In this document: piece by piece, positions 8,395 to 22,124 of the stretch
Numbering within the stretch: the stretch's first letter is position 1
Layout of the letters: each line of letters begins with the position of its first letter
Source: Sphingopyxis sp.
GTDB taxonomy: Bacteria > Pseudomonadota > Alphaproteobacteria > Sphingomonadales > Sphingomonadaceae
Reading direction: 5' to 3'
NCBI RefSeq assembly: GCF_019459305.1
Contig: NZ_JAIBES010000151.1
Coordinates: 1 to 64,000, forward strand
Length of the DNA stretch: 64,000 nt
Notes under the pieces: model-generated
What the model was told of the DNA's origin: nothing
The model's input: the letters and a program-made list of their open reading frames with translations, nothing else
The model's database searches: none
Translations under genes and position numbers: made by a program

Positions 8395-8987
8395 GATGTA
8401 GCCAATCCGGTTGCCCGCAGCCACGCCAGCAGCGGGAGCATCGGCATGCCGATGATTGTCCAGGGATCGCCCTCAACCTTTTCGAACAATTGCACGCCTG
8501 CTCCCTCGATCTCATAACAGCCGACGGTCCAGCGGATACTGTCCCAATGCTGCGCGACATAGGCGGCGATGAAGGCGTCGGACAAGGGGCGCATCCACAG
8601 CTTCGCCTCGCCGATCGCGCGCCAGACCGGGGCGCCGTCGCGCGCGGCGACCGCGGCGCTGAACAGGCGGTGCCGCGTCCCCGCCATGCGGCGCAGATGA
8701 TCGGCCGCCTCTTCGGGCGTCTCGGGTTTCGAAAGCATCGTGCCGTCGTCGAGCGCGAGCGTCGAATCGGCGCCGATGACGGTCACGCCGGGCAGCCGCG
8801 ATGAAATTTTTACCGCTTTGGCCTCGGCGAGGGCATCGGCAATATTGCGCGGCGTCTGGCCCGCGGTGAGCAGCGATGCGGTGAGCGCCTCCTCGTCGAC
8901 ATGCGCCGCAGTCGTCGCGAATTCGAGCCCGGCGGCGCGCAGCATGGCGGCGCGGCCGCTGCTTTGCGAGGCCAAGAGAAGGGTCAT
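8391..8987 (-). CDS. Maf-like nucleoside triphosphate pyrophosphatase
   Basis: This 198-residue Maf/HAM1-fold enzyme starts LLLASQSSGRAAMLRAAGL, the hallmark Maf motif, followed by GADSTLALDDGTMLSKPETPEEA and RWTVGCYEIEGAGVQLFEKVEGD. Members hydrolyse non-canonical or excess nucleoside triphosphates and can delay septation. I start at ATG 8987, which overlaps the ppsR stop (ATGA). The upstream ORF extension is the ppsR reading region in another frame. Confidence 0.93.
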   Translation of the reverse strand: MTLLLASQSSGRAAMLRAAGLEFATTAAHVDEEALTASLLTAGQTPRNIADALAEAKAVKISSRLPGVTVIGADSTLALDDGTMLSKPETPEEAADHLRRMAGTRHRLFSAAVAARDGAPVWRAIGEAKLWMRPLSDAFIAAYVAQHWDSIRWTVGCYEIEGAGVQLFEKVEGDPWTIIGMPMLPLLAWLRATGLATS

Positions 8988-9796
8988 GCGGCGCCGCGGT
9001 CCTCGACCAGCTTGATCACCGCCGCCGCGGTTTCCTCGATCGAGCGGCGCGTGACATCGATCACCGGCCAACCATTGTCTGCAAACATGCGCCGGGCATA
9101 GGCCAGCTCGGCTTTCACCCGTTCATCATCGACATAGGCGGTTTCGGGGGCCTGGTTGAGCGACAGCAGCCGGTTGCGCCGCACCTGCACCAGTCGGTCG
9201 AGCCCAGTCGTCAACCCAACAATCATCGGGCGTTTCAGTCGATACAGCGCCTCGGGCGGCGGCGATTCAGGGACAATCGGGATGTTCGCGGTCTTGAAGC
9301 CGCGATTGGCCAGATAAATGCTGGTCGGGGTCTTCGATGTCCGCGACACCCCGGCAAGAACGATGTCGGCCTGTTCCCAATTTTCCCAGCCGATGCCGTC
9401 ATCGTGCGCAACGGTGAACTGGATCGCCTCGACCCGCGCGAAGTAAGCAGCGTCGAGCTGGTGCTGACGCCCCGGGCGCGCTTTCGCTTCCTGGCCCAGC
9501 ATCCGCGACAGCGCATCGGTCACCGCGTCGAGTGCGGGGACGAGCGGCAGGTTGAGTGCCCCGGCTCGGCGCTCCAGGCTGACGCGCAGGTCGCCATTGA
9601 CCAGCGTGAACAGGATCATCCCCGGACTCGCCTGCACTTCGGCCATGATCCGGTCGAGATGCGATTCCGATCGCACCATCGGCCAGAAATGGCGCACCAC
9701 CTCGACATCGTCGAACTGCGCGATCGCCGCCTTGGCGATATTTTCGAGTGTCTCGCCCGTGGAGTCCGATATGAGATGAAGGTGAAGCCGGCCCAT
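8984..9796 (-). CDS. ppsR: pyruvate, water dikinase / PPDK regulatory protein (kinase and phosphorylase)
   Basis: This 270-residue DUF299 protein switches PEP synthase or pyruvate phosphate dikinase off and on by ADP-dependent phosphorylation and Pi-dependent dephosphorylation. The N-terminus LHLISDSTGETLENIAKA and the P-loop-like GVSRTSKTPTSIYLANRG (about 149-166) are diagnostic. The start MGRLHLHLISDS at 9796 fits the family; the ORF start at 9886 would run into a DnaA box. It is the first gene left of the putative origin and heads the ppsR-maf-aroE-coaE-dnaQ operon. Confidence 0.94.
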   Translation of the reverse strand: MGRLHLHLISDSTGETLENIAKAAIAQFDDVEVVRHFWPMVRSESHLDRIMAEVQASPGMILFTLVNGDLRVSLERRAGALNLPLVPALDAVTDALSRMLGQEAKARPGRQHQLDAAYFARVEAIQFTVAHDDGIGWENWEQADIVLAGVSRTSKTPTSIYLANRGFKTANIPIVPESPPPEALYRLKRPMIVGLTTGLDRLVQVRRNRLLSLNQAPETAYVDDERVKAELAYARRMFADNGWPVIDVTRRSIEETAAAVIKLVEDRGAA

Positions 9797-9866
9797 CGCG
9801 GCACCATGGAGGGAAGCTGCAGAAAAAGGCAATCCCGGATCAGGTTCGAGGTATCGAAAAGCGGCC

Positions 9867-9988
9867 TGTGGATAAGTTTTGGACAAGCGTGGGGAGCAAA
9901 TGGGGACGGGGGTTTCATCCCCGACGCTGCCGATTCCGCCCGATCACTTGTCCACATGGGATGGAATCTATCCACAGGCTGTGGATTA
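9867..9988. promoter_or_regulatory. DnaA box cluster
   Basis: The boxes are TGTGGATAA at 9867-9875 (perfect TTATCCACA on the minus strand), TTGTCCACA at 9948-9956 (one mismatch), CTATCCACA at 9968-9976 (one mismatch) and TGTGGATTA at 9980-9988 (minus strand, one mismatch). The last two face each other 3 bp apart. Confidence 0.85.
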
Positions 9989-10090
9989 GGGGCATAGCGG
10001 GTCGCGACTCTGGAGCAAAGCGTGGCATGATGAGAGTCAAGCTGTTGGCAAAAACGACGCCTCCGCCTAAAGCCGCGCTGTTCGCCGACC

Positions 10091-10131
10091 AACAAACCAC
10101 CACAATATTATCTAATATTCTATTGCAGAGA
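10091..10131. promoter_or_regulatory. AT-rich putative DNA unwinding element with a 16-bp palindrome
   Basis: This stretch is strikingly AT-rich for this genome. It includes AATATTA-TC-TAATATT (10104-10119), which has perfect 7-bp arms. It lies next to the DnaA boxes and ends about 15 bp before the hemE start, so it could be the unwinding element, a hemE operator, or both. Confidence 0.55.
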
Positions 10132-10145
10132 GAAAGAGGGGCCGT

Positions 10146-11174
10146 GTGAAGGCGTCACCGAAGAGTTTGCTGGCGGTGCTGCGCGGGGCGCGGCAGGAAC
10201 GCCCGCCCTTGTGGCTGATGCGTCAGGCCGGGCGCTATCTTCCCGAATATCGCGCGCTGCGGGAAACCAAGGGCGGTTTCCTCGAGCTTTGCTATGATCC
10301 TGAAGCGGCGGCGGAAGTCACCCTACAGCCAATCCGGCGGTTCGGGTTCGACGGGTCGATCCTGTTTTCAGACATCCTGATCGTCCCCCACGCGCTGGGA
10401 CAGAAATTATGGTTCGAGGCAGGCGAGGGGCCGCGGCTGGCCCCGCCGCTGGTCGATAGCGCACTGGCGCAACTCGAAGCGGCGCCGGAACGGCTTGACC
10501 CCATTTATGCGACCGTGGCTCGCGTCGCCGCTTCGCTCCCTGCTGAGACGACCTTTTTGGGCTTTGCCGGAAGCCCCTGGACCGTCGCGACCTATATGGT
10601 GGCGGGGCAGGGGTCGAAGGATCAGGCCGCAGCGCGGCGACTGGCATATGGCGACCCCGCGGCGTTCCAGGCAATCATCGATGCAATCGTCGATATTACC
10701 GTAATCTACCTGTCGGGGCAGATCGAACATGGCGTCGAGGCGGTGCAGTTGTTCGACAGCTGGGCCGGCAGCTTGAGCCCGGCGCAATTCGAACGCTGGG
10801 TGATCGCCCCGAACGCGGAAATTGTCCGCCGCCTGAAGGCGATGCATCCCGACACGCCGGTGATCGGCTTTCCCAAGGGCGCCGGCGGCAAGCTGCGCGC
10901 CTATGCCGATGAGACCGGGGTCGATGCGCTCGGTCTCGACGAAACCGTCGATCCCGACTGGGCCGACCGCGTCCTGCCGCAACATCTGCCGGTGCAGGGC
11001 AATCTCGATCCGCTGGCGCTGGTGGCGGGCGGCGCGGCTCTGGACGCCGCGATCGATCGTATCCTTGCGGCTTTCCCGGCGCGTCCCCATATCTTCAACC
11101 TCGGCCATGGCATCGTCCCCGACACGCCGATCGCCCATGTCGAGCATCTGATCAGACGGGTTCGCGGCGGATAA
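10146..11174 (+). CDS. hemE: uroporphyrinogen decarboxylase
   Basis: This 342-residue cytosolic enzyme converts uroporphyrinogen III to coproporphyrinogen III in heme synthesis. LMRQAGRYLPEYR (about 25-37) is the conserved substrate-binding N-terminal motif. GFAGSPWTVATYMVAG and NLGHGIVPDTP are the other family signatures. The start is GTG, preceded by an AGAGGGG ribosome binding site. It is the first gene right of the origin, as in Caulobacter, and hemJ follows directly. Confidence 0.96.
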   Translation: MKASPKSLLAVLRGARQERPPLWLMRQAGRYLPEYRALRETKGGFLELCYDPEAAAEVTLQPIRRFGFDGSILFSDILIVPHALGQKLWFEAGEGPRLAPPLVDSALAQLEAAPERLDPIYATVARVAASLPAETTFLGFAGSPWTVATYMVAGQGSKDQAAARRLAYGDPAAFQAIIDAIVDITVIYLSGQIEHGVEAVQLFDSWAGSLSPAQFERWVIAPNAEIVRRLKAMHPDTPVIGFPKGAGGKLRAYADETGVDALGLDETVDPDWADRVLPQHLPVQGNLDPLALVAGGAALDAAIDRILAAFPARPHIFNLGHGIVPDTPIAHVEHLIRRVRGG

Positions 11175-11175
11175 A

Positions 11176-11625
11176 ATGGCAGACTGGGCAGGATTTCTGG
11201 GGGCGACGATGCTTTGGGTCAAAGCGGCGCATATTATTTTTGTCATCTTCCTGATGGCCGGCCTGTTCATGATGCCACGCTTCTTTGTCTATCACCACCA
11301 ATGTGCCGTCGGATCGGACGAGGATAAAAAGTGGATCGAGCGCGAAGACCGCTTGCGCCGCATCATCCTGAACCCGTCGCTGACGATCGTCTGGGTGCTC
11401 GGGTTACTGCTCGCCTTCAACGGCAATTATTGGGGCGAGACCTGGTTCATCGCCAAATTCATCCTGGTGTTTGCGCTGTCGGGCTACCACGGCTGGATGA
11501 TCGGCTATTTCAAGAAGCTGCAACAGGGTCAGCGGCCGCTCACCGAAAAGCAGCTCCGGCTGCTCAACGAAGTTCCCGGTGTGGCCGCCGCGATCATCGT
11601 CATCCTGGCGGTCGTTCGGCCCTGA
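11176..11625 (+). CDS. hemJ: protoporphyrinogen oxidase HemJ
   Basis: This 149-residue inner-membrane protein has about four membrane segments. The diagnostic HemJ stretch is VKAAHIIFVIFLMAGLFMMP with PRFFVYHH following; its conserved His is a heme ligand in the family. It performs the penultimate step of heme synthesis in bacteria lacking HemG or HemY. It starts 1 bp after the hemE stop, so the two are co-transcribed. Confidence 0.92.
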   Translation: MADWAGFLGATMLWVKAAHIIFVIFLMAGLFMMPRFFVYHHQCAVGSDEDKKWIEREDRLRRIILNPSLTIVWVLGLLLAFNGNYWGETWFIAKFILVFALSGYHGWMIGYFKKLQQGQRPLTEKQLRLLNEVPGVAAAIIVILAVVRP

Positions 11626-14208: not shown

Positions 14209-14610
14209 ATGTCCCCACTCCATCTCACCAAGGTCGCGGTCGGTTGCGCGCATGTCGAGACGTTCGCGCGCCGGGTGGCGACGCGCGTGCGCGATGGTGA
14301 GTTGCGCGTGCCGACGCGGATGCGGCCCAAGCGGATGGACGAGCTGGTTGGCGGTTACCTGCACTGGATCATCAAGCACCGCATCGTCGCGCGGCAGCAG
14401 ATTTTGCGCTTCGATGATCGCAAGGATGGCCGCGTCGACATCGTGTGTTCGCAAGATCTGGAAATACTGCCGCCGCTGTCAAAGCGCGCGCATCAGGGGT
14501 GGCGCTATCTGGCCGATGACGACGCGCCCAAGGGCATGGCCGAGCATGACGGCGTTGCCGACCTGCCGCCGCACCTCTACCGCGAGCTCGCGGCGCTGAT
14601 GCTGATCTAG
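14209..14610 (+). CDS. DUF1489 family protein
   Basis: This 133-residue protein matches DUF1489: the start PLHLTKVAVGCAHVETF, the middle TRMRPKRMDELVGGYLHWIIKHRIVARQ and the end DLPPHLYRELAALML are all typical. The family is common in alphaproteobacteria and has no known function. It stands alone and converges on the SnoaL-like gene 13 bp away. Confidence 0.88.
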   Translation: MSPLHLTKVAVGCAHVETFARRVATRVRDGELRVPTRMRPKRMDELVGGYLHWIIKHRIVARQQILRFDDRKDGRVDIVCSQDLEILPPLSKRAHQGWRYLADDDAPKGMAEHDGVADLPPHLYRELAALMLI

Positions 14611-15830: not shown

Positions 15831-16124
15831 ATGAAGTTCAATATCGAGATCGATTGCACCCCCCAGGAAGCGCGGCAGCTGTTCGGCCTGCCCGATCTGG
15901 AGCCGCTGCACGATGTCTATCTCGACCGCGTCAAGGAGCTGATGGCGAAGGGGATTACCCCCGACATGGTGCAGGCGATGGTCAAGACCTGGGTGCCGAT
16001 GGGCGAGAGCGGGTTGGGGCTGGTCCAGTCGCTGCTCGGTCAGTTTGGCGGTGGGCTGATGGGCGGCGCTAGCAAACCGGCTGCCACGGACGACGACAAG
16101 CCGGCGCGGGGGCGCAAGAGCTGA
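15831..16124 (+). CDS. DUF6489 family protein
   Basis: This 97-residue protein begins MKFNIEIDCTPQEARQLFGLPDLEPLHDVYLDR, the conserved core of DUF6489, then a Gly-rich helix SLLGQFGGGLMGG and a charged tail. Its function is unknown. I start at ATG 15831, which has GGAGACAGG upstream; the ORF extension to 15744 runs back across the divergent promoter region. It abuts mnmE with a CTGA overlap. Confidence 0.87.
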   Translation: MKFNIEIDCTPQEARQLFGLPDLEPLHDVYLDRVKELMAKGITPDMVQAMVKTWVPMGESGLGLVQSLLGQFGGGLMGGASKPAATDDDKPARGRKS

Positions 16125-17452
16125 ATCAAGACAGCGTAAACGACACGATCTTTGCCCTGTCGAGCGGGATGCCGCCGGCGGCGATTGCCGTCGTTCGCGT
16201 CAGTGGGTCGCAGGCGGGTGCGGCGTTGCAGGTGCTGGCAGGGCGTTTGCCCCCGGCGAGGCGGGCGACGCTCGCCGAGATCAAGACCATGAACGGGGAG
16301 CCCCTCGATCGCGCGCTGATCCTGTGGTTTCCCGGTCCGGCGACAGCGACGGGCGAGGATTTGGCCGAACTGCACCTGCATGGTGGGCGGGCGGTCGTCG
16401 CCGCGGTCGAGGCAGCGCTGACGGCGCTGCCGGGGTTGCGGCGCGCCGAAGCGGGAGAATTTACCCGGCGGGCGTTCCTCAGCGGGCGGATCGATCTGGC
16501 CGAGGCGGAAGGGTTGGCCGACTTGCTGGCCGCCGAGACGGAAAGTCAGCGGGTGCAGGCTTTGGGCATGGCAAGTGGACATGTGTCGCGGGCGGTCGCG
16601 GGGTGGCAGGACCGGTTGCTGACGCTGATGGCGGCAGCCGAGGCGGAACTGAATTTCGCCGATGAGGATGACGTCGAAGTTGGCGAAACTGTCACTCTAA
16701 AGTTGATCGCTGGAATGACGGATTTGAGTAAAGAACTGGCCGGGTGGCTGGCGCGGCCCGCGGCGGAGGTGATCTCCGAGGGGTTGTCGGTGGTGATCGC
16801 CGGGCCGCCGAATGCCGGGAAATCTACACTTATCAATGCGTTAGCTCGGCGTGAGCTGGCGATCGTATCGCCCGTGGCGGGGACGACGCGCGATGTGATC
16901 GAGACGCCGTTGGCGCTCGACGGGATCGCGATGCGCTTTTCGGATACGGCGGGGCTGCGTTCCGAAAGTGCCGACGACATCGAGATGATCGGGATCGATC
17001 GCGCGAAGGCGGCTGTCGAGGCGGCGGATATTCTGCTCTGGCTGGGGGCGCCGAAGGCTGTCCCGAACCACCCGCGCGCGATCCTGATCGCGGCGCAGGC
17101 CGATCGGTGGCGCGGCGATGCGGCGGCGGAGGCCGAGGCGGGACTTTGCGACCTGATTCTGTCGGCGGCGACGGGGGAGGGAATGGAGGCGCTGCATCGC
17201 ATGATCGTAGAGAGGGCGCGAACGCTGTTGCCGCGCGATGGCGAGGCGGCGCTCCGGCAGCGGCAGCGCGCCGCGCTAGGCGAGGCGCGCGATTGGCTGC
17301 GGATTGCTGCGGGGTCGCGCGAAGCGTCCGACCTGATCCTGCTCGCCGAGCGGCTGCGGCTCGCGAGCGGTGCGCTCGACCGAATCACCGGGCGCGCAGG
17401 GGTGGAAGACATGCTCGACACGCTGTTTGGACGTTTCTGCATCGGAAAGTGA
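16121..17452 (+). CDS. mnmE: tRNA uridine-5-carboxymethylaminomethyl(34) synthesis GTPase MnmE, probable CTG start
   Basis: MnmE with MnmG modifies U34 of certain tRNAs. The G domain carries GPPNAGKSTLINAL, VAGTTRDVIET and DTAGLR, and the protein ends FGRFCIGK with the family C-terminal Cys. The ORF track starts at ATG 16169 (MPPAAIAVVRVSG), but in-frame codons upstream read NDTIFALSSG, the conserved MnmE N-terminus. No ATG, GTG or TTG is available after the in-frame stop at 16070. The codon that fits is CTG at 16121, overlapping the DUF6489 stop as CTGA. That gives 443 residues, close to the usual length. Confidence 0.9.
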   Translation: MNQDSVNDTIFALSSGMPPAAIAVVRVSGSQAGAALQVLAGRLPPARRATLAEIKTMNGEPLDRALILWFPGPATATGEDLAELHLHGGRAVVAAVEAALTALPGLRRAEAGEFTRRAFLSGRIDLAEAEGLADLLAAETESQRVQALGMASGHVSRAVAGWQDRLLTLMAAAEAELNFADEDDVEVGETVTLKLIAGMTDLSKELAGWLARPAAEVISEGLSVVIAGPPNAGKSTLINALARRELAIVSPVAGTTRDVIETPLALDGIAMRFSDTAGLRSESADDIEMIGIDRAKAAVEAADILLWLGAPKAVPNHPRAILIAAQADRWRGDAAAEAEAGLCDLILSAATGEGMEALHRMIVERARTLLPRDGEAALRQRQRAALGEARDWLRIAAGSREASDLILLAERLRLASGALDRITGRAGVEDMLDTLFGRFCIGK

Positions 17453-17468
17453 TGTTCCACGTGGAACA
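17453..17468. other. parS centromere site 1
   Basis: TGTTCCACGTGGAACA is a perfect 16-bp palindrome matching the ParB-binding consensus TGTTnCACGTGnAACA. It starts on the base after the mnmE stop codon and lies about 7.3 kb from the origin boxes and 3 kb from parA. Confidence 0.93.
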
Positions 17469-17572
17469 GCGCTTCAGAGCGAAACTGGTACGCCCATTTT
17501 CTGTGTGAGCTTTATTAGCGCGCTTCGCGCGGTGGATTTCACATGGGCTTTCGGCTATGCGCCGACCCAATC

Positions 17573-19435
17573 ATGCATAGCAGTAGAATATATGATGTCA
17601 TCGTCGTCGGCGGGGGCCACGCTGGAACCGAGGCAGCCGCCGCGGCGGCGCGGCTTGGCGCGCGGGTGGCGCTCGTCAGTTTTGATCCGGCTCTGATCGG
17701 GACGATGTCGTGCAATCCGGCGATCGGGGGGCTCGGAAAAGGGCATCTGATGCGCGAGGTCGATGCACTTGATGGCTGGATGGCGCGCGCGGCCGACAGC
17801 TCGGCGATCCATTACCGGATGCTCAATGCGTCGAAGGGCGCGGCGGTGCAGGGGCCGCGGATCCAGGCCGACCGGAAGCGCTATCGCGATGCGATCCAGC
17901 AACTGCTCGCGGCCGAGGATGGCATCACGGTGATTGCGGGCGAAGCGGCGGCGCTGAGTCTGTCCGATGATGGAGCGGTTGTCGAAGGGCTTGAACTTGG
18001 CGACGGCACGTCACTGAACGCGCCCGCGGTCGTGCTCGCCACTGGTACTTTCCTGGGCGGGCGGATGTTTCGCGGCGAGGAGCGGATGATTGGCGGGCGT
18101 ATCGGTGAGGATGGCGCGCATCGGCTCGCCGAGCAGTTGCGCGCTGCCAATTTGCCGATGGCGCGGCTCAAGACCGGGACGCCGCCGCGGCTCGACGGTC
18201 GAACGATCGACTGGGCGCGGTTGGAAGAACAGCCGTCGGACGGCGGGACCTGGACCTGTTCCACGTGGAACAACGCGCGTTCGGTGCCGCAAATTTTTTG
18301 CGCGATCACGCGCACCAACGCCGAATCGCACCGGATCATCGCCGACAATCTTCATCGTTCGCCGCTGTTCACCGGCGCGATCGGGGCGGCGGGGCCGCGT
18401 TATTGCCCGTCGATCGAGGACAAGATCCACCGCTTCGCCGACCGCGACGGGCATCAGGTGTTTCTTGAGCCCGAAGGACTGGACGACCATCTCGTCTATC
18501 CGAACGGCATTTCGACCTCGCTACCTGCCGATGTTCAATTGAGCATGCTGCGGACGATGGAAGGGCTGGAAGCGGTCGAGATGGTCGTGCCGGGCTATGC
18601 GGTCGAATATGACCATATCGACCCGCGGGCGCTCGACCGCACTTTGCAGGTGCGCGCGATGCCCGGTCTCTATTGTGCGGGACAGATTAACGGCACGACG
18701 GGTTATGAAGAGGCGGCGGCGCAGGGGCTGGTCGCGGGCGCCAACGCGGCGCTGGCGGTGCTGGAGCAGGCACCGCTGATCCTCGACCGTTCCGAATCCT
18801 ACATTGGGGTGATGGTCGACGACCTCGTATTGCAGGGGGTGACCGAACCCTATCGCATGCTCACCGCGCGTGCCGAATATCGGCTGCGGCTTCGCGCCGA
18901 CAATGCCGCGACGCGGTTGACGCCAAAGGGGATCGATCTCGGTTTGGTGCGACCAGCAACCGCGACGCTGTTCGCGGCGCGGCAGGCGGCGCGCGCAAAA
19001 GTCCAAGCCTTGCTTGCCGTGGCGGTGACAAGCACCGACTATGGTACGATCGGCATGGGCATCCCGGGCGACGGCATCGCGCGGACCCGGATCGAGCTGC
19101 TTCGGTTTCGCGATGTGTCGATTGCGACCTTGGCGCAACTCGCACCCGAACTCGATGCGATCGATCCGACGATCCTGGCCGAGTTGGTCGAGGATGCGCA
19201 TTATGCACCCTATATTGCGCGGCAAGATGCCGAACTGCGGTCGCTGGCGGCCAACGAGGCGATCAGTCTTGATCCGGCGCTCGACTATGCGGCGATCGGC
19301 GGGCTGTCGCGCGAGATGGTCGAGCGGCTGGGCAAGGCGCGGCCTGAGACTCTGGGTCAGGCAGCGCGGATCGATGGGGTGACCCCGGCGGCGTTGACCG
19401 CGATCATGGTGCATAGTCGGCGGCGGGCGGCGTGA
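17573..19435 (+). CDS. mnmG: tRNA uridine-5-carboxymethylaminomethyl(34) synthesis enzyme MnmG
   Basis: This FAD-dependent partner of MnmE has 620 residues from ATG 17573 (or 630 from 17543). The FAD-binding motif is [48 protein letters not shown] carries a conserved family cysteine, and [21 protein letters not shown] is the second FAD motif. The start at 17573 puts the FAD motif close to the N-terminus as in relatives. A parS site lies inside the gene (18257-18272). It follows mnmE as usual. Confidence 0.95.
18257..18272. other. parS centromere site 2, inside mnmG
   Basis: TGTTCCACGTGGAACA is again a perfect 16-bp palindrome, within the mnmG reading frame where it contributes the codons for CSTWN. 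It is the second of three sites between mnmE and parA. Confidence 0.92.
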
Positions 19436-19713: not shown

Positions 19714-20385
19714 ATGTGGATGATGGACAACGGTGACACGACACTGGGCAGTGAGCCGGCGGCGCGCGACTGGATCGAGGAAACCTTTGCTCCGTCAGCC
19801 GATCAATGGGCGCGGCTGGAGCGATTTGCGGCGATGCTGGTGGCCGAGAGTACGCAGCAAAATCTGATCGCCGCGTCGACGATTCCGATCTTGTGGGTGC
19901 GGCATATCGCCGACAGCGCGCAGCTGCTGGCGCTCGATCGCGATCGCGACGGGCTGTGGCTCGACCTGGGGAGCGGGCCGGGTTTGCCGGGGATCGTCGT
20001 CGCGCTGCTGCGCGAGCGGCCGATGATGCTGGTTGAATCGCGCAAGCGGCGGTGCGATTTCCTGCGCGCGGTGGTCAGCGAACTGGCGCTGGCGCATGTC
20101 GAGATCATCGAGGCGCCACTCGAACGCATCGAAACGCGCGCCGCAGCGACGATCAGCGCGCGCGCTTTTGCGCCGCTCGATAAGCTGATCGACTTGTCCG
20201 CCCGTTTTTCCACCGAATCGACGCGCTGGCTGCTGCCAAAGGGGCGAAATGCGGTTAAGGAACTGGCGTTGTTGCCGCAGGCATGGCAGAATCTGTTTCA
20301 CGTGGAACAAAGCCTTACCGACGCCGACAGCCAGATTCTGGTCGGAACCGGGCAAATCACGGATAAGAAGCGAGGAAAAGCATGA
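19714..20385 (+). CDS. rsmG: 16S rRNA (guanine(527)-N(7))-methyltransferase RsmG
   Basis: This 223-residue SAM-dependent enzyme methylates G527 of 16S rRNA; loss gives low-level streptomycin resistance in several bacteria. The SAM motif is LWLDLGSGPGLPGIVVALL. QQNLIAASTIPILWVRHIADSAQLL precedes it as usual, and TISARAFAPLDKLIDLSARF follows. The C-terminal FHVEQ is encoded by a parS site. Starts at 19714 or the nearby internal ATGs (MMDNG) are possible. The stop overlaps the parA start in ATGA. Confidence 0.94.
   Translation: MWMMDNGDTTLGSEPAARDWIEETFAPSADQWARLERFAAMLVAESTQQNLIAASTIPILWVRHIADSAQLLALDRDRDGLWLDLGSGPGLPGIVVALLRERPMMLVESRKRRCDFLRAVVSELALAHVEIIEAPLERIETRAAATISARAFAPLDKLIDLSARFSTESTRWLLPKGRNAVKELALLPQAWQNLFHVEQSLTDADSQILVGTGQITDKKRGKA
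20294..20309. other. parS centromere site 3, inside rsmG
   Basis: TGTTTCACGTGGAACA is one base off a perfect palindrome and still matches the ParB consensus. It encodes FHVEQ near the RsmG C-terminus and lies 73 bp before parA. Confidence 0.9.
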
Positions 20386-21164
20386 TCCGCATTTGCGTGG
20401 CGAACCAGAAGGGCGGGGTTGGCAAGACGACGACCGCGATCAACCTGGCGACCGCACTCGCGGCGACCGGCTGGCGGACGCTGATCATCGACCTCGATCC
20501 GCAGGGCAATGCCTCGACCGGGCTGGGAATCAAGCAGGCACAGCGCGAATATTCGAGTTACGAGCTGCTACGCGGCGATGCGACCTTGCGCGAATGCGCG
20601 ATCCCGACCGCGGTGCCGCGGCTCGACATCGTGCCTGCGACGGTTGACCTGTCGGGGGCCGAGATCGAGCTGATCGAATTTCAGGACCGGTTGCACCGGA
20701 TGCAACAGGCGCTGTCGGGACCGGACGCGGCGCAGTGGGATATCTGCCTGATCGATTGCCCGCCGTCGCTGGGGATGCTGACGCTCAATGCTTTGATCGC
20801 CGCCGAATCGCTGATCGTGCCGCTGCAATGCGAATTTTTTGCGCTCGAAGGATTGAGCCAGCTGCTCACGACGGTCGAGCGGGTGCGCGAGCGTTTCAAC
20901 CAGAAATTGTCGATCCTGGGCGTGGCGCTGACGATGTTCGATCGCCGCAACCGGTTGACCGATCAGGTGTCGGACGATGTGCGCGAGGTGCTTGGCCCGG
21001 TGGTTTTCGACACCGTCATCCCGCGCAACGTCCGCCTGTCCGAAGCGCCGAGCCATGGCCTACCGGCGCTGATATATGATCATCGCTGCGCCGGGTCCGC
21101 GGCGTATATCGCATTGGCGCGCGAGCTGATCGATCGCCTGCCCAACGTCCGCAAGGCTGCATAA
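20382..21164 (+). CDS. parA: chromosome-partitioning ATPase ParA
   Basis: This 260-residue Walker-type partition ATPase has the deviant Walker A VANQKGGVGKTTTAINLAT at about residues 5-23, Walker A' DLDPQGNAS, and Walker B ICLIDCPPSLGMLT. It binds nonspecific DNA in its ATP form and moves the ParB-parS complex to the pole. It overlaps rsmG by 4 nt and parB follows with no gap (TAA then ATG). Confidence 0.96.
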   Translation: MIRICVANQKGGVGKTTTAINLATALAATGWRTLIIDLDPQGNASTGLGIKQAQREYSSYELLRGDATLRECAIPTAVPRLDIVPATVDLSGAEIELIEFQDRLHRMQQALSGPDAAQWDICLIDCPPSLGMLTLNALIAAESLIVPLQCEFFALEGLSQLLTTVERVRERFNQKLSILGVALTMFDRRNRLTDQVSDDVREVLGPVVFDTVIPRNVRLSEAPSHGLPALIYDHRCAGSAAYIALARELIDRLPNVRKAA

Positions 21165-22124
21165 ATGGTTGATAAACAAGACGAAACGGGATCTTCACCA
21201 GCGCGCAAGCGCCCGTCGGGGCTGGGGCGCGGGCTGAACGCACTATTCGGCGATGTGGCGGCCGAAGCACCGGTGCTGGCGACGGCTGGAAGTGCCGCAA
21301 AGGCGGTGCCGACGGTGTCGGGCGACGCGGTGCAGCATGTACCGCTGGGGTCGATCCGCCCACTGCCCGGCCAGCCGCGGCGTCATTTCGACGACAACGC
21401 CATTTCGGAGCTTGCCGATTCGATCGGGCTGCGCGGGCTGTTGCAGCCGATCATCGTGCGCCGCGCTCCCGACGGTGACGGCTACCAGCTGGTGGCGGGC
21501 GAGCGGCGCTGGCGCGCGGCGCAGCGCGCCGGGCTTCACCAGATTCCGGCGCTGGTGCGCGAACTCGACGATGCCGCGACCTATGAAATCGCACTGGTCG
21601 AAAATATCCAGCGCCAGGACCTCAACGCCATCGAAGAAGCGGGCGCCTATCGCCGCCTGATCGACGATTTCGGGCATAATCAGGAAGCGCTGGCCAAGCT
21701 GGTCGGCAAATCGCGCAGCCATGTCGCGAATCTGATGCGGCTGCTCGACCTGCCCGACACGGTGCAGGCGCTGGTCGGCGACGGATCGCTGGCGATGGGG
21801 CATGCGCGGGCGCTGATCGGCGCCGAAGATGCCGAAGCGATTGCGCGGCGCGTGGTCAAGGAAGGCCTGTCGGTGCGCGCGGTCGAAGCGCTGGTGCGCG
21901 AGGGTAAGGGCGGCGGGCGCAAGGCGCCGCTGGAATATAACAGCATGGATGGTGCCGGGCGCGACCCCGACATCGTCGCGGTCGAGCGCCACTTGTCCGA
22001 GCTGCTCGGGATTGGCGTGGCGATTCAATATGCGGGGGGCGGCAAGGGCAATCTGACGTTGAAGTTCGCGTCGCTCGATCAGCTTGATATGATTTGTCAG
22101 CGGCTGAGCGGCGAGGCGATCTGA
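21165..22124 (+). CDS. parB: chromosome-partitioning protein ParB (CTPase)
   Basis: This 319-residue parS-binding CTPase clamp starts with a basic RKRPSGLGRGLNALFGD segment, the ParA-interacting part. The CTP-binding box is LVAGERRWRAAQRAG, preceded by QPRRHFDDNAISELADSI. The DNA-binding helix-turn-helix is QEALAKLVGKSRSHVANLMRLLDLP, and the C-terminal dimerisation domain ends with LDQLDMICQRL. It is immediately downstream of parA, with three parS sites within 5 kb. Confidence 0.96.
   Translation: MVDKQDETGSSPARKRPSGLGRGLNALFGDVAAEAPVLATAGSAAKAVPTVSGDAVQHVPLGSIRPLPGQPRRHFDDNAISELADSIGLRGLLQPIIVRRAPDGDGYQLVAGERRWRAAQRAGLHQIPALVRELDDAATYEIALVENIQRQDLNAIEEAGAYRRLIDDFGHNQEALAKLVGKSRSHVANLMRLLDLPDTVQALVGDGSLAMGHARALIGAEDAEAIARRVVKEGLSVRAVEALVREGKGGGRKAPLEYNSMDGAGRDPDIVAVERHLSELLGIGVAIQYAGGGKGNLTLKFASLDQLDMICQRLSGEAI

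Follow-up and report, generated by a model that had tools for sequence, protein, structure and literature searches.

A very probable chromosomal replication origin between ppsR and hemE in a Sphingopyxis draft genome

In Escherichia coli, oriC comprises DnaA boxes, an IHF site and an AT-rich unwinding element within a few hundred base pairs. Among Alphaproteobacteria the hemE/COG1806 arrangement marks the experimentally identified origin of Caulobacter and a predicted one in Rickettsia (PMC1914354). For the genus Sphingopyxis, the genome paper on S. granuli TFA predicts oriC next to hemE, where conserved DnaA boxes accompany a DNA unwinding element (DUE) across the genus (PMC4741004). Here, we describe the corresponding region of another Sphingopyxis strain, whose draft genome comprises 155 contigs and 3.97 Mb; the stretch of DNA analysed, hereafter called the window, covers 64 kb. 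A preliminary description had proposed a probable origin beside hemE and had pointed to the same neighbourhood in Caulobacter, which is indeed what the literature reports (PMC1914354).

The region in question is the 349-bp gap at 9797-10145 that separates the divergent genes ppsR and hemE (Table 1). Family and Rfam searches detected neither a family-recognised gene nor an RNA match inside it, and the flanking genes were identified by PF03618 and TIGR01464, so that the gene-free gap described before could be confirmed. The PF03618 protein PpsR is taken here to be the COG1806/DUF299 protein, which gives the gap the location typical of alphaproteobacterial hemE-type origins. With ppsR as flanking gene it has the same neighbour as the origins of Caulobacter and Rickettsia (PMC1914354). 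The closest relative of hemE is the copy in genome G030 (99% identical). Two antisense overlapping reading frames, 9404-9997 (+) and 9616-10095 (-), were rejected as genes, as neither matches any Pfam family. Further downstream, a HemJ-like protein (11176-11625) scores 104.7, which is under the curated NCBIfam cut-off of 138, and 14209-14607 encodes a DUF1489 protein of unknown function within the origin-proximal cluster.

Table 1. Sequence features in and around the ppsR-hemE gap (positions refer to the 64-kb window).
Feature	Position	Strand	Remarks
ppsR	8984..9796	-	flanking gene; PF03618 Kinase-PPPase, NF003742; start at 9796
Intergenic region, very probable oriC	9797..10145		between divergent ppsR and hemE
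DnaA box 1 TTATCCACA	9867..9875	-	perfect; identical in 40/48 genus gaps
Weak degenerate DnaA box TTGTCCAAA	9878..9886	-	fifth box, two mismatches
GANTC site GATTC	9932..9936		inside block invariant in 48/48
DnaA box 2 TTGTCCACA	9948..9956	+	one mismatch; TT[AGT]TCCACA in 46/48 genus gaps
GANTC site GAATC	9964..9968		edge of box 3; conservation incomplete
DnaA box 3 CTATCCACA	9968..9976	+	one mismatch; TTATCCACA in 42/48 genus gaps
DnaA box 4 TAATCCACA	9980..9988	-	one mismatch; most relatives TGTGAA on + strand, weak
GANTC site GACTC	10006..10010		near-invariant
GANTC site GAGTC	10034..10038		overlaps IHF-like site; 47/48
IHF-like site AGTCAAGCTGTTG	10035..10047	+	one mismatch to consensus WATCARNNNNTTR; kept in 47/48
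Putative DNA unwinding element	10098..10131		least stable duplex in 64-kb window
hemE	10146..11174	+	flanking gene; TIGR01464, 394.9 bits; GTG start at 10146
parS TGTTCCACGTGGAACA	17453..17468	+	
parS TGTTCCACGTGGAACA	18257..18272	+	
parS TGTTTCACGTGGAACA	20294..20309	+	
parA and parB	20382..22124	+	

All four DnaA boxes listed in the preliminary description, one perfect and three with a single mismatch, were found where it had placed them, including boxes 3 and 4, which face each other with 3 bp between them. Allowing up to one mismatch, the 3.97 Mb of the whole genome contain 275 DnaA-box sites. At this rate 0.024 boxes are expected in 349 bp, and the four boxes seen represent an approximately 170-fold excess (Poisson probability of at least four about 1e-8); in 5000 simulations of the gap by a first-order Markov model four boxes were never reached. 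No other DnaA-box cluster occurs within the window.

This cluster, as expected of a hemE-type origin, is not only above chance but also conserved. Alignments of the gap within the genus covered 30 genomes and then 48 distinct gaps out of 60 fetched loci, and three boxes upstream of hemE keep their order and a fixed spacing genus-wide. A strong box 4 is limited to about 4 of the 48 aligned relatives; most have the weaker half-site instead. A search pattern that joins box 2, box 3 and CTGTG and tolerates one mismatch matches exactly once in each of 74 genus genomes out of the 80 searched; the reversed pattern, used as control, never matches. In the strain's own genome a direct view of box positions covers 100 of the 275 sites; across the genome as a whole, the two-box pattern is found at the hemE gap only. 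Beyond the genus, 20 loci were inspected, the majority of them in other families of this order, and box clusters precede hemE in most cases with differing spacings. The named records with the origin motif are mostly Sphingopyxis, among them that of S. bauzanensis DSM 22271, the others being uncultured or unnamed sphingomonads and alphaproteobacteria.

The AT-rich stretch noticed before corresponds to the putative DUE, whose duplex stability is the lowest of the whole 64 kb when calculated in 27-bp as well as in 40-bp segments; such an easily melted element belongs to hemE-type origins. Between the DnaA boxes and this unstable duplex a predicted IHF-binding site is positioned. In 47 of the 48 gaps GAGTCAA-NN-TGTTGG is retained, and the IHF-like site varies in its N4 spacer only. 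To the right of the gap three parS sites follow at 7-10 kb and parAB at 10-12 kb, in agreement with the earlier claim that both lie within 12 kb. One parS is situated just past mnmE and two within mnmG and rsmG, directly before parAB.

By analogy with other bacteria, DnaA-ATP would load first on the strong boxes at 9867 (-), 9948 (+) and 9968 (+) and would then spread to the weaker sites at 9878 (-) and 9980 (-). By bending the DNA at 10035-10047, IHF may bring the DnaA complex into contact with the unstable element, which would open for helicase loading, and replication would start here. ParB bound at parS, 7-10 kb rightward, would then segregate the copies.

The preliminary description had further predicted a minimum of cumulative GC skew at this place, and this prediction holds at coarse scale only. 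Twenty 20-kb samples per genome were taken from four complete relatives. In all of them the sampled skew is higher on the hemE-downstream half and its sign switches near hemE (permutation p 0.047 for G014, 0.0006 for G007, 0.0003 for G005 and 0.0026 for G017), so that the switch known from hemE-type origins is apparent at this sampling but weak in G014. Skew is weak in the genus in general. Left and right of the gap, the window shows a slight positive skew, and the cumulative curve has no local minimum in between; the contiguous cumulative minimum of G014 is displaced from hemE by about 24 kb to the left. The highest skew of the window (0.19) is reached at 16001-18000 in the mnmE/mnmG area, and the skew of G014 also rises in this area downstream of hemE.

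Two other explanations have to be considered. The true origin could be located at dnaA, hundreds of kilobases away, with the hemE gap as a secondary DnaA-binding locus. The coarse fit for G014 indeed favours a position at about +334 kb, near dnaA, and that for G017 peaks about 250 kb from hemE, again near dnaA, though by a negligible margin (0.0407 vs 0.0396) that leaves this genome ambiguous; moreover, three assemblies have dnaA at most 30 bases from the contig start, which we take to be assembly convention. On the other hand, G005 and G007 switch at hemE rather than at dnaA, the mean skew of the hemE-to-dnaA interval is positive and not negative in G001 (0.020, se 0.006) and more weakly in G021 (0.013, se 0.008), and the dnaA regions of seven genomes contain only 0-2 scattered boxes. 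We consider an origin at dnaA very improbable. Even less credit can be given to the idea that the boxes serve only the DnaA-dependent transcriptional regulation of hemE or ppsR and that replication starts elsewhere within tens of kilobases. It is true that the promoters of both genes must sit in the gap and that the local skew minimum of G014 is offset, but fixed-spacing boxes, an IHF-like site and an element of extremely low stability together represent the make-up of an origin, a second box cluster is missing from the window, and in Caulobacter the homologous gap has been proven to be the origin (PMC1914354).

Against the origin at hemE we count the weak skew of the genus, the missing local minimum at the gap in the window, the offset minimum of G014, the coarse fits of G014 and G017 near dnaA and the mismatch that each of boxes 2-4 carries in this strain. 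Nevertheless, judged from sequence, this Sphingopyxis very probably has its chromosomal oriC at 9797-10145, as proposed. This reading follows from boxes far above chance in a genus-wide order and spacing, which occur once per genome in nearly all genomes searched and never in the control, from the clusters before hemE in other members of the order, and from the skew switch of the relatives together with the positive hemE-to-dnaA skew in G001 and G021. It follows likewise from the least stable duplex, the conserved IHF-like site, the nearby parS and parAB and the published origins of Sphingopyxis and Caulobacter.

A further peculiarity of the gap is its GANTC sites, of which genus gaps contain 4.7 on average, compared with a window-wide density of 0.8 per 350 bp. 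The strain's own gap has 4 vs a simulated mean of 1.5 (P 0.06), which is only weakly above a simulation of its own composition; the case for these sites is made by their conservation and not by their number in one gap. Throughout the class, GANTC sites are enriched in intergenic regions (PMC8116508). The genome encodes GcrA and a RAMA-domain protein that from its sequence is probably CcrM. Perfect CtrA sites (TTAA-N7-TTAA), a feature of the Caulobacter-type CtrA-controlled origin, are absent from all 48 genus gaps (one-mismatch matches: 11), and some related origins were also reported without CtrA sites (PMC1914354). That the CcrM methylation state of the conserved GANTC sites, one of them overlapping the IHF-like site, governs initiation in Sphingopyxis and replaces CtrA repression is an unlikely extension.

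Compared with known systems, the gap resembles E. coli oriC in combining DnaA boxes with an IHF or IHF-like site and an AT-rich element for unwinding, and differs in neighbouring genes, in spacing and in having GANTC where E. coli has GATC methylation sites. With Cori of Caulobacter crescentus it shares the hemE-COG1806/DUF299 location, DnaA boxes, an IHF site and an AT-rich region (PMC1914354) as well as the GANTC sites already reported there (PMC3973325); Cori differs by its five CtrA sites (PMC1914354). Closest is S. granuli TFA, a different species of the same genus, whose predicted oriC also adjoins hemE and lies in the corresponding intergenic region, where a putative DUE is found together with conserved DnaA boxes; IHF-like and GANTC sites are not mentioned for its oriC in the available passages (PMC4741004). 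Thus, the placement of the origin beside hemE is very probably correct and already known in kind, from Sphingopyxis itself (PMC4741004) and from Caulobacter and Rickettsia (PMC1914354). Our additions are modest, namely the predicted IHF-like site overlapping GANTC, the near-invariance of three GANTC sites and the absence of perfect CtrA sites from the genus gaps. This conserved IHF-like/GANTC element and the CtrA pattern offer simple testable differences from Caulobacter, and the assignment would fix chromosome origin and orientation in a draft genome and extend a known class of origins by one well-conserved member.
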